From Bordetella sp. 02P26C-1 (GTDB lineage Bacteria > Pseudomonadota > Gammaproteobacteria > Burkholderiales > Burkholderiaceae_B), in contig NZ_WSJB01000022.1 in the NCBI RefSeq assembly GCF_009763255.1, forward strand, positions 248,001-312,000: a stretch of DNA of 64,000 bases, in the 5' to 3' direction. Shown here in pieces: positions 47,329 to 49,512 of this stretch. Below the pieces are notes generated by a model that did not search any database, was not told the DNA's origin, and saw only the letters and a program-made list of their open reading frames with translations. Position 1 is the first letter of the stretch. Every line of letters starts with the position of its first letter. The position numbers were made by a program, and so were the translations under genes.

Positions 47329-47670
47329 TTATAGCTGCTCAGGCGTCGGGCCTGGAGTGGGGGTTGAACTTGGCGTCTGTACGGCGCCTTGCGTCGATGT
47401 TGTACTTTGCCCCTGCGCGGACTTGCTTTCAAGCGCCACGATGCGGGTCTCCAGCAGTTGCACTTGTGCAGCCAACTGGTCGACGCGCTCGCGCGCACGG
47501 GCCAGCAGATCGGTCTGGACGTCGAACTCCTCGCGCGTAATCAAATCCATGCGCGTGAACGCCTGGCTCATCACGGCCTTGACGTTGCGTTCAAGATCGG
47601 CCGCCGGGCTGCGCGCAATTAAGTCCGACACATTCTTCTGTAGATCTTCAATCCACTGATTGCGGTTCAT
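47329..47670 (-). CDS. ubiK: Ubiquinone-biosynthesis accessory factor UbiK (BMFP/YqiC)
   Basis: This 113-residue protein of the BMFP family starts MNRNQWIEDLQKNVSDLI and has a coiled-coil C-terminal half (REEFDVQTDLLARARERVDQLAAQVQLLETRI). UbiK helps aerobic ubiquinone synthesis with UbiJ in E. coli and Salmonella. The tail after residue 90 is Gln/Thr/Pro-rich. GAGGA lies 5 bases before the ATG at 47670. Its usual neighbours are glnK-amtB on one side and comM on the other; here both junctions are interrupted. Confidence 0.88.
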   Translation of the reverse strand: MNRNQWIEDLQKNVSDLIARSPAADLERNVKAVMSQAFTRMDLITREEFDVQTDLLARARERVDQLAAQVQLLETRIVALESKSAQGQSTTSTQGAVQTPSSTPTPGPTPEQL

Positions 47671-47870
47671 ACGTCCTCGCATGGTGATTCTCGATATGCA
47701 CAGTGTAGACCGTTACCGCGCAAATAAAAAACGTCGGCCTGCGATTTCTGATGAAGCTCGATGTGAATTAAAAGGCATTTATGGACAGCCAGTTACGAGC
47801 TCGATGGGATTGCGTTTTTCGGAGGTAACACTCGCCATCAGAACTAGCATAAGTGCATTGACGATGCCAA

Positions 47871-48878
47871 TTAAGGAACATGGAAGCAAGACGTCTCCGG
47901 CCGCTCCTGCCAAAGCGGGTGATTTTCCCAACCTGGAGTAAACCCCATATCAGCCACCGACAAGCCGGACACCGCCGGGAAGTCATCGAGCAATCGCCGC
48001 AACCGCGCAGGCCACGTCGAATTCGGGCTGACGACGCGCATCAGGTGCAGCAAAATGCACAGCATCACGAACAAGCGTGAGGCGACGGCCGGCTGGCCGA
48101 TCACGAGGTCGAAGGCCGGCATCACCCCCGCACGCGGCAACTTCGGCTGATCCACCAGATTCTTGTTCCACAAACGGCTGTGGTGAGCCGCAACATTGCG
48201 CACGAAATTCAATGCTCTGAGCCAGCTTTGCAAAAGCTGGCCGTCGGGTAAGCCGTAGCGCTCGGCGATCGCATCTCGATCATCCACCCGCATGCCTTGG
48301 TAAAAGGTGGCCAACATGCCGAAGTCCCATAGTTCAACGCTTACCCAGACGGGAAATGGCTCGCCGTACTTTTGCTTATAGTGCCTGACGAAATCCTCCC
48401 GTGAGCGCGCCACCATCTGTTGGTGCTTATCCAACCAATTTTGATGGGCTGTGCGACCCGTTGCCGGATGTACTTTCTTGGCGAAGTTCCCATGCAGCAT
48501 GGCAGGGTTCATATGTGCGAAGGGGTCACGTTCACCCAGACGGTAAGACACATCCACTCGCAAGGCCACCTCGATGCGCTCGATAGCATCAAGGACTAGC
48601 AGGCGAAGTCGTTTATCGAAGACATAAAGGGCCAGGACCTGCTCGAAGCTACTGCCTGGGCGGAACGCGTCAGCCCGCTGCACGGCAACCTTCGGCGACC
48701 CAGCAGTTTGCAACAGCACAGTCTGGCGCAGCGGATACCAATACGCACTCAGCCGGTAGTAGCCAATGCGGCGCAAGCACGCTAGCGCTGCGGCCTCGTC
48801 GGTAACGTCCAAACCACAGTCCTTCAGTAGGGACAGCTGCTGCTCGCAGGTGAGGTAGGGCTTGTTGTACGTAGACAT
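47871..48878 (-). CDS. Abi_2 (AbiD/AbiF-type) HEPN-family abortive-infection protein
   Basis: This 335-residue protein matches the Abi_2 family. Visible segments are YNKPYLTCEQQLSLLKDCGL, LRRIGYYRLSAYWYPLR, LYVFDKRLRLLVLDAIERIEVALR and LRALNFVRNVAAHHSRLWNK. The RNVAAH at residues 227-232 is an R-x4-6-H HEPN ribonuclease motif. Family members cleave RNA and block phage growth or cause dormancy. The gene has no Shine-Dalgarno site before the ATG; instead a terminator-like hairpin ends 10-18 bases upstream. It is inserted between ubiK and glnK, genes that are normally adjacent. A GTG at 48887 is an alternative start. The 200 bases between this gene and ubiK are AT-rich and hold no gene. Confidence 0.85.
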   Translation of the reverse strand: MSTYNKPYLTCEQQLSLLKDCGLDVTDEAAALACLRRIGYYRLSAYWYPLRQTVLLQTAGSPKVAVQRADAFRPGSSFEQVLALYVFDKRLRLLVLDAIERIEVALRVDVSYRLGERDPFAHMNPAMLHGNFAKKVHPATGRTAHQNWLDKHQQMVARSREDFVRHYKQKYGEPFPVWVSVELWDFGMLATFYQGMRVDDRDAIAERYGLPDGQLLQSWLRALNFVRNVAAHHSRLWNKNLVDQPKLPRAGVMPAFDLVIGQPAVASRLFVMLCILLHLMRVVSPNSTWPARLRRLLDDFPAVSGLSVADMGFTPGWENHPLWQERPETSCFHVP

Positions 48879-48887
48879 GGTCGGCAC

Positions 48888-48938
48888 AAAAGAAAACCCA
48901 CCCGTACATCTTTCGACGCAGAGGGGTGGGCCGTGTTG
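48888..48938 (-). ncRNA. Putative structured RNA upstream of the abi gene (AbiF/RAGATH-18-like candidate)
   Basis: Read on the minus strand, a transcript from about 48938 would contain an outer stem CCCACCC (48930-48924) with GGGTGGG (48903-48897), perfect over 7 bp. Inside it is a smaller stem CGTC/GATG closing a GAAA tetraloop (48918-48907). The outer stem is followed by TTTTCTTTT (48896-48888), a terminator-like end, and the Abi ATG comes 10 bases later. A short RNA that terminates just before an Abi_2 gene is the arrangement reported for AbiF-linked RNAs. Family membership is inferred from structure and position. Confidence 0.55.
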
Positions 48939-48944
48939 AGATCG

Positions 48945-48973
48945 ATTTTAACGGGTCTGGATATAGACCTCAA
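48945..48973 (-). promoter_or_regulatory. Sigma-70-like promoter of the abi RNA/gene
   Basis: TTGAGG at 48973-48968 and TAAAAT at 48950-48945 are separated by exactly 17 bases. The start of transcription would be near 48938, 8 bases before the outer stem of the RNA. A 7-bp inverted repeat (48951-48957 with 48989-48995) brackets the -35 region. Confidence 0.55.
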
Positions 48974-49378
48974 GGGCAATGGCCATCGGACCCGTCTGGG
49001 ATTCCAGGATGTTCGCCGTTATGACCCGCTTCGCGCTTCGATACCAGGTGGAATGATGGCCACCGCGGCGAATGAATCGTGGTGGCCTCCGGTAGCCAAC
49101 AAAAAAATGGGCGGGCCGAAACGGCACCGCCTCAAAGCACAGGAGAAATAGAAACGCGCCCGTTGCCTAGCAACACGGCCCTCTCGCGAGCGCCTATCGT
49201 TTTGCATCCGGGCGTAGTCATTCTCTCTGACGCCTAAGGAACTGAACAGGCACGTCATGTAAACCGTAGTTTCATAGTATTTGACGGAATGCTGAGACGC
49301 GACGAAAGAGTCGCATCAATTCGATACAAGACAGCCCTTTCGCACATATTTAGTTTCAGAAGCGCCGCGCTGGTGCGT
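48974..49378. other. Gene-free stretch between abi and the glnK control region
   Basis: No convincing gene is present; a 72-codon plus-strand frame at 48933-49151 overlaps the abi promoter and has no family look. Small hairpins are visible, for example GCGAC/GTCGC with a GAAAGA loop near 49297-49312. The junction between inserted and original DNA probably lies in this stretch, but no flanking duplication was found. Confidence 0.6.
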
Positions 49379-49395
49379 TGCACCACTTTGGGGCA
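49379..49395 (+). promoter_or_regulatory. NtrC-binding site 1 upstream of glnK
   Basis: TGCACCA, three bases, TGGGGCA: one mismatch to the NtrC consensus TGCACCA-N3-TGGTGCA. It is one of a pair whose centres are 34 bp apart, about three helical turns, as in typical NtrC enhancers. Confidence 0.82.
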
Positions 49396-49412
49396 GATCG
49401 ATTTCGGTGCGT

Positions 49413-49429
49413 TGCACCACATTGGGGCC
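49413..49429 (+). promoter_or_regulatory. NtrC-binding site 2 upstream of glnK
   Basis: TGCACCA, three bases, TGGGGCC: two mismatches to the NtrC consensus. It lies about 85 bases before the -24 element of the sigma-54 promoter. Site 1 and site 2 together form the visible direct repeat of GGTGCGTTGCACCAC. Confidence 0.8.
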
Positions 49430-49512
49430 GAAGCCTCAATGCACGTTCGCTGCCAGACGCCGCAAACCCATTGCTACGGGGAAAAACTCGAGTTCCCCAG
49501 CATGCCTAAAAG

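Follow-up and report, generated by a model that had tools for sequence, protein, structure and literature searches.

The stretch of the Bordetella sp. 02P26C-1 genome analyzed here (64,000 nt; the window) carries an Abi_2 (AbiD/F) HEPN gene directly behind a small structured RNA, and the locus is very probably a two-part, type III-like toxin–antitoxin (abortive infection) module in which the RNA antitoxin also attenuates the toxin gene. The RNA itself appears to be a divergent member of the abiF type, moving together with its clade of toxins. Two results support action of the RNA in trans: a sister group of toxins whose RNAs form separate convergent units, and copies of the RNA in phages with no toxin gene nearby.

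Organization of the locus

The promoter-like site, the RNA, and the Abi_2 gene all lie on the same strand (Table 1). The first-pass annotation had described a promoter with a 17-nt spacer, a ~50-nt RNA ending in a terminator-like structure ahead of the start codon, and a gene with no Shine–Dalgarno site; all of these features were recovered. The promoter-like site is at chance level when taken alone (1 found against 1.2 expected in a 2-kb, two-strand scan). Its −10 box ends 7 nt short of the AAC conserved in the RNA, and a gap of 6–7 nt recurs in 12 of the 19 leaders carrying RNAs of the window's type (hereafter window-class), with a mean of 8.5 promoter matches as compared with 7.0 in shuffled sequences. 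No Shine–Dalgarno match of at least 4 nt precedes the window gene; such matches precede 2/17 window-class genes, 14/18 genes of the convergent group described below, and 26/102 others. An in-frame GTG at 48887 lies three codons 5′ of the ATG, making the exact start codon uncertain.

Table 1. Features of the window locus, with the loci and phages recovered by related searches
Feature	Position or members	Strand	Basis
Sigma-70-type promoter-like site, TTGAGG-17-TAAAAT	48945..48973	minus	sequence scan
Small structured RNA, ~50 nt	about 48888..48937	minus	fold, covariation, model R1 (76.2 bits)
P1 outer stem	48932–48924 with 48903–48895	minus	7-bp perfect helix, extended outward by two G-U pairs
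CUC bulge	48923–48921	minus	fold
P2 inner stem, GAAA cap	48920–48915 with 48910–48905	minus	fold
Single C	48904	minus	fold
Abi_2 (AbiD/F) HEPN gene, 335 aa	47871..48878 (ATG 48878, stop ends 47871)	minus	Pfam, PADLOC, 8VZ6
Extra stretch with RNA and gene	47712..49099, ends approximate		BLAST against other genomes of the genus
Convergent-RNA loci (RNA downstream of gene, opposite strand)	L085, L086, L087, L112–L115, L119–L125, L138, L140–L142, L144		R1
Phages matched	Aeromonas phages PZL-Ah8, vB_AhaP_PT2, T7-Ah, PZL-Ah152; Salicola phage CGphi29 (two records)		53-nt DNA query

The nearest homologue found (L083, from another genus, 84% protein identity) is similar at the DNA level starting from 48974, one base ahead of the −35 box, so that promoter, RNA, and gene have the appearance of a single unit. 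The gene is the sole Abi_2 match in its own genome. A search with R1, a covariance-type model built from the window-class RNAs (the window RNA included in the training set), gives one match and thus no second RNA copy in the window; elsewhere in the same genome it finds four weaker places of 22.7 bits or less (L148 and L150 without the core).

In each of eight further genomes from the genus, ubiK and glnK lie side by side, separated by about 598–691 nt; the corresponding spacer in the window measures 1887 nt, and the extra DNA carries the RNA and the gene. BLAST similarity to these relatives stops at about 47711 and restarts at about 49100. A comparison of 47681–47790 with 49031–49120 for target-site repeats returned no common word of 7 nt or longer.

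Two further elements were observed in this spacer region. A ~49-nt hairpin with a U-run on the minus strand of the ubiK–glnK spacer (49100–49148) is 92%–96% identical in 8/8 other genomes of the genus, while its flanks diverge across them; it is possibly an unnamed small RNA or a terminator. Upstream of glnK, at 49372–49420, the element GTGGTGCAACGCACC occurs in two copies, which we take to resemble NtrC sites.

RNA structure and covariation

The fold of the window RNA (−23 kcal/mol, z = −4.66) was equaled by none of 200 shuffled sequences. It consists of the predicted 7-bp perfect outer stem, extended by two G-U pairs, and a GAAA-capped inner stem, with a U-rich run 3′ of P1. Leaders of related genes were read by eye, and those of the window class were then anchored for alignment; the resulting alignment A1 comprises 19 leaders (P1 with nine pairs, P2 with five), with one outlier (L145) left out. 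Covariation in homologous leaders, which the first-pass annotation had set beforehand as a test, is strong: standard pairs occupy 95.9% of the 266 cells, with both sides changed in 32 cells, and 0/500 shuffles match A1 in pairing, in double-changed cells, or in covariation score. Changes on both sides affect 7 of the 14 pairs (1/500 shuffles gets as many); the number of further pair types is reached by 74/500 shuffles. Shifting the structure by 1–3 columns lowers pairing to 30%–55%, an excess that is partly expected because the structure was derived from the same A1 sequences.

P1 is paired in all 19 sequences, and the P2 pair 24–47 fails in 8/19. The unpaired positions C20, C22, and C39 are invariant in A1, and T21 is at least 90% conserved; conserved unpaired positions beside the stems indicate that selection acts on more than termination. 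For one locus (L064), neither reading by eye nor R1 recovered a leader RNA.

The Abi_2 protein

The window protein matches Pfam Abi_2 with an E-value of 1.4e-57 (195.4 bits, against a cut-off of 25.6) and PADLOC AbiD with an E-value of 4.7e-64. The RNVAAH motif, noted at first pass, occupies residues 227–232. Its conservation among homologues, likewise proposed as a check, holds throughout: R227, N228, A231, and H232 are invariant in 137/137 aligned rows, which represent the usable proteins from 145 loci (window included, some rows near-identical) after removal of six short or broken proteins and two for which no start was found.

An AlphaFold2 model built with 48 homologues has a mean pLDDT of 95.4. 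Foldseek comparison with the PDB returned one match below an E-value of 0.001, the PbAbiF dimer bound to its noncoding RNA (8VZ6; E = 5.3e-19, 32% identical in the fold alignment), which is also matched by sequence using phmmer (E = 1.9e-47). The Pfam score above cut-off, the R-N-x-x-A-H motif, and the AbiF fold place the protein within the Abi_2/AbiD-F family. At a separate locus (L088, 1179–1965), a full window-class RNA accompanies a toxin gene that matches as two pieces with internal stops.

Relation to the abiF RNA family

The RNA had been attributed at first pass to RAGATH-18. This identity was rejected: RAGATH-18 is described as the RNA of IS607 TnpB rather than as an Abi-associated RNA (PMC11061315), and the appropriate comparison is the abiF motif RF03085, named as the Abi-associated RNA motif in PMC12373285. 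No TnpB was seen by eye among the ORFs of 42–55 kb, and an Rfam scan of 47500–49500 gave nothing beyond a 15.2-bit hit, at chance level, to a different family.

The suggestion that the RNA is a new variant fared better, as the RF03085 model does not score it: no match was obtained up to an E-value of 10 in 47500–49500, nor in the window's own genome (150 of 2080 candidates scored). At the gathering score, RF03085 matched 0/20 loci in one batch and 3/20 in another (40 of the then 111 loci), and it matched none of five window-class loci. The public abiF model thus missed the window-class RNAs that were tested. Models of abiF RNA by Zilberzwige-Tal et al. also exist according to PMC12804078, and these may already include the window class.

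Several features are shared with RF03085: the RNA lies beside (and, in the window, 5′ of) an Abi_2 gene; a G+C-rich outer stem is followed by a U-run; CCUCU adjoins the outer stem at the inner end of its 5′ strand; and the start is AACA-like. However, the RF03085 consensus consists of an outer stem, one A, a 3-bp AGC/GCU inner stem, and an 11-nt loop, from which the window RNA departs in its outer stem of 7–9 pairs, its lack of the 3-bp stem, its CUC bulge, its larger hairpin of 5–6 bp, and the single C on the 3′ side.

Searches with R1 gave 26 matches at E ≤ 1 in one set of Abi_2 loci (81 sources) and 38 in the other (64 sources). Compared by eye, 63 of these 64 matches sit at the end of an Abi_2 gene (the exception is L071:6290), although 19 of them make up the training set itself and one (L117) repeats another (L005). 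Canonical abiF leaders were reached weakly by R1, at the right place, in L071, L026, L028, L047, L105, L133, and L106. Conversely, a model built from 23 canonical abiF leaders (R2; L046 left out) weakly matches 11 convergent-group RNAs at their place, yet it returned no hit to the window RNA at E ≤ 10 and gave 10.7 bits (E = 0.09) in a full scan of 1.6 kb. Because R2 misses the window RNA, common descent with RF03085 rests on anatomy, gene linkage, and the weak but well-placed cross-matches.

A sister group with convergent RNAs

Nineteen homologues, 42%–49% identical, start with a K-x-W motif (KPW in most). No upstream RNA was seen in those sister-group leaders that were read; unlike RF03085 RNAs, the RNA of this group is downstream and convergent. 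R1 places it directly 3′ of the toxin gene, on the opposite strand, in 19/19 loci, with scores from 49.8 bits (L121) to 15.1 bits (L138, E = 0.065), the weak ones resting on position. In 17 of the 19, no more than 24 nt separate the 3′ end of the RNA from the stop codon of the toxin; in the exceptions, the frame runs 145 nt beyond the RNA end (L113) or is broken (L086). The RNA also appears to have a promoter of its own: the −10 of the best promoter-like pair ends 6–7 nt before AAC in 19/19 loci (17 at 7, two at 6), and these pairs average 9.8 of 12 matches as compared with 7.0 in shuffles.

Pairing is retained. In an alignment of 12 sister RNAs alone (A2), for which the structure was the RNAalifold prediction on that same alignment minus one pair, 95.3% of cells are paired and eight pairs are double-changed (0/500 shuffles). 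An alignment of the other seven sister RNAs with eight upstream-class RNAs (A3) has 92.4% of cells paired (0/500 shuffles). A quick tree of 119 proteins puts all 18 full-length convergent proteins on one side of a branch with SH-aLRT support of 98; this side adjoins the window's nine-member group (99), with support of 85 for the pair.

That the RNA has switched its position, strand, and promoter while its pairing persisted is most readily understood if it acts in trans, and judging by the convergent arrangement, this RNA does not seem to have to be a leader. By annotation and inspection by eye, several convergent loci lie in or beside operons with restriction or other defence-like genes.

Toxin-less copies in phages and bacteria

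The window-class pattern was found in eight stretches of viral contigs, two of them with a toxin gene. The other six, representing three distinct sequences, showed no Abi_2 match to 10 queries in the DNA examined, and their RNAs score 54.5–67.5 bits with R1. In L174, the RNA directly follows an ORF that itself follows the major head protein gene (phrog_9953, E = 1.3e-37). In L173 and L180 it directly follows an 85-aa ORF, L173 covering only about 100 nt downstream and L180 much more. In L175, L178, and L179 the promoter-like stretch is kept, and the toxin frame stops after six codons if GTG is the start.

The canonical abiF pattern is more frequent, with 72 viral stretches, and tblastn with 21 Abi_2 queries finds the toxin in three. 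The 69 without it represent 52 distinct contexts; 36 have at least 1.5 kb on both sides, whereas in the rest a toxin may lie beyond the DNA covered, and a very divergent toxin could escape tblastn. At least four of the 69 (L182, L195, L203, L223) retain a short Abi_2-like start. Upstream ORFs, which were not found for 20 of the 72, are gp32-like by eye in about a dozen cases (L184, tested: phrog_224, E = 1.3e-107) and elsewhere encode GroEL (L246 tested), endolysin, or a tail-like protein. The gp32, GroEL, and head genes are strongly expressed. A scrambled pattern gave zero matches. Among 121 bacterial genomes of the family, the canonical pattern turned up at two places, both beside Abi_2 genes.

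A single 53-nt query matched 6 of 50,697 phage records (Table 1). The RNA lies between connector and capsid-assembly genes in the three Aeromonas phages inspected and between hypothetical genes in the Salicola phage. T7-like Aeromonas phages are lytic. Rfam RF03085 confirms the RNA in 4/4 inspected named phages and 7/7 canonical viral contigs tested. A tblastn search of the phage collection with the window protein returned no Aeromonas or Salicola phage among 71 records, and a DNA search of the collection with a window-class RNA found nothing.

Bacterial copies were also recovered. R1 at E ≤ 1e-4 identified 12 genome places besides the window: four are known loci; three are high-scoring orphans (L161, L168, L171) with no Abi_2 match within ~1.5 kb on each side; two (L164, L170) keep an Abi_2 fragment; and three (L163, L165, L172) look, by eye, like plain hairpins without the core. 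The L161 RNA adjoins an ORF that is transposase-like by eye.

Earlier work reported that cyanophage S-CREM1 carries an abiF sRNA and that Rfam includes three phage members (PMC9964418); neither the passages of that paper on these RNAs nor the open-licence literature searched proposes a counter-defence decoy role for phage abiF RNA. We hold the chances to be even for a composite reading in which the standing toxin-less RNAs are phage anti-AbiF decoys, positioned so as to be produced together with transcripts that should be abundant (3′ of the gp32 single-strand binding protein gene and GroEL, and in head-gene operons), the window class represents one specificity group among several in an arms race, and the sister clade has detached its RNA as a convergent unit, allowing the toxin to be carried within other defence operons. 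A plainer alternative to the decoy is that phages merely use the RNA motif as a terminator. We judge the convergent group and the putative phage decoys to be the parts of this work least likely to be known already.

Proposed mechanism and alternatives

In the module that we propose, a single promoter would make the ~50-nt RNA, presumably in abundance, and the anatomy of the outer stem and U-run suggests a terminator at which most transcripts would end before the gene. Rare read-through would yield an mRNA lacking a Shine–Dalgarno site and, from it, a HEPN RNase; the HEPN fold and motif are computed, and by analogy with PbAbiF and AbiFCd the protein would be an active homodimer. The free RNA would bind the toxin and block it in trans, as RCd22 and the RNA of PbAbiF suggest. 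If the supply of RNA dropped, as might happen once an infecting phage shuts down host transcription, unbound toxin would be expected to cut RNA and growth to stop.

The strongest competitor, which we nonetheless regard as improbable, is that the RNA is a cis attenuator only, its terminator limiting toxin mRNA until a phage factor opens it, as for the lactococcal abiD1 5′ UTR, on which a phage protein acts (cited in PMC12373285). The position of the RNA 5′ of the gene, the terminator-like element formed by its own stem, and the scarcity of Shine–Dalgarno sites among window-class genes are all consistent with this. However, a function restricted to leaders would not explain a separate convergent RNA in 19/19 sister loci, the invariant C20, C22, and C39 and the conserved T21 are unneeded for termination, and toxin-less copies occur in phage contigs. 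Much less probable still is a guide RNA that steers the HEPN nuclease to targets in the manner of Cas13: the HEPN domains of AbiD/F group with those of Cas13an (PMC12165695), but the locus has one RNA copy and no spacer-like variable stretch, the ~50 nt being conserved or internally paired besides the hairpin, and the reading was rejected for absence of the variable part. That the structure is a chance hairpin or ordinary intergenic terminator with no RNA gene, as the chance-level score of the isolated promoter would allow, is barely credible, being already contradicted by the covariation in 19 leaders, the fold z-score, the conserved promoter-to-RNA spacing, and the placement of R1 matches at Abi_2 genes.

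Comparison with known systems

Among the systems closest to the toxin–antitoxin module proposed here is RCd22–AbiFCd of Clostridioides difficile phi027, in which an Abi_2 HEPN toxin also lies behind its own RNA, with one promoter and a terminator between RNA and gene (PMC12373285). For that distant homologue, toxicity and premature termination are reported as experimentally shown, and RCd22 as neutralizing AbiFCd in cis and in trans via direct binding (PMC12373285). RCd22 is described there as carrying a pair of abiF motifs plus a terminator hairpin distinct from them, along with a ribosome binding site, whereas the window locus has one motif, its own stem as the terminator-like element, and no Shine–Dalgarno site. 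The PbAbiF–AbiFr complex (PDB 8VZ6; Zilberzwige-Tal et al., Cell 2025) is alike in protein fold and HEPN family. Cas13 is reported to descend from AbiF (PMC12737573, PMC12373285), and the evolution of the AbiF antitoxin RNA is relevant to the origin of guide RNAs.

The antitoxins of classic type III systems are repeats, unlike the single RNA copy of the window locus. In ToxIN, an RNA antitoxin is likewise bound by an RNase toxin, and an RNA of phage PhiTE mimics that antitoxin (PMC3475682), although toxin and antitoxin are of other structure and the antitoxin is a repeat (PMC12373285). PhiTE escape is described as having arisen in rare mutants (PMC3475682), whereas the phage copies identified here are present as found, and they make the question of what counters AbiF directly testable with isolated phages.
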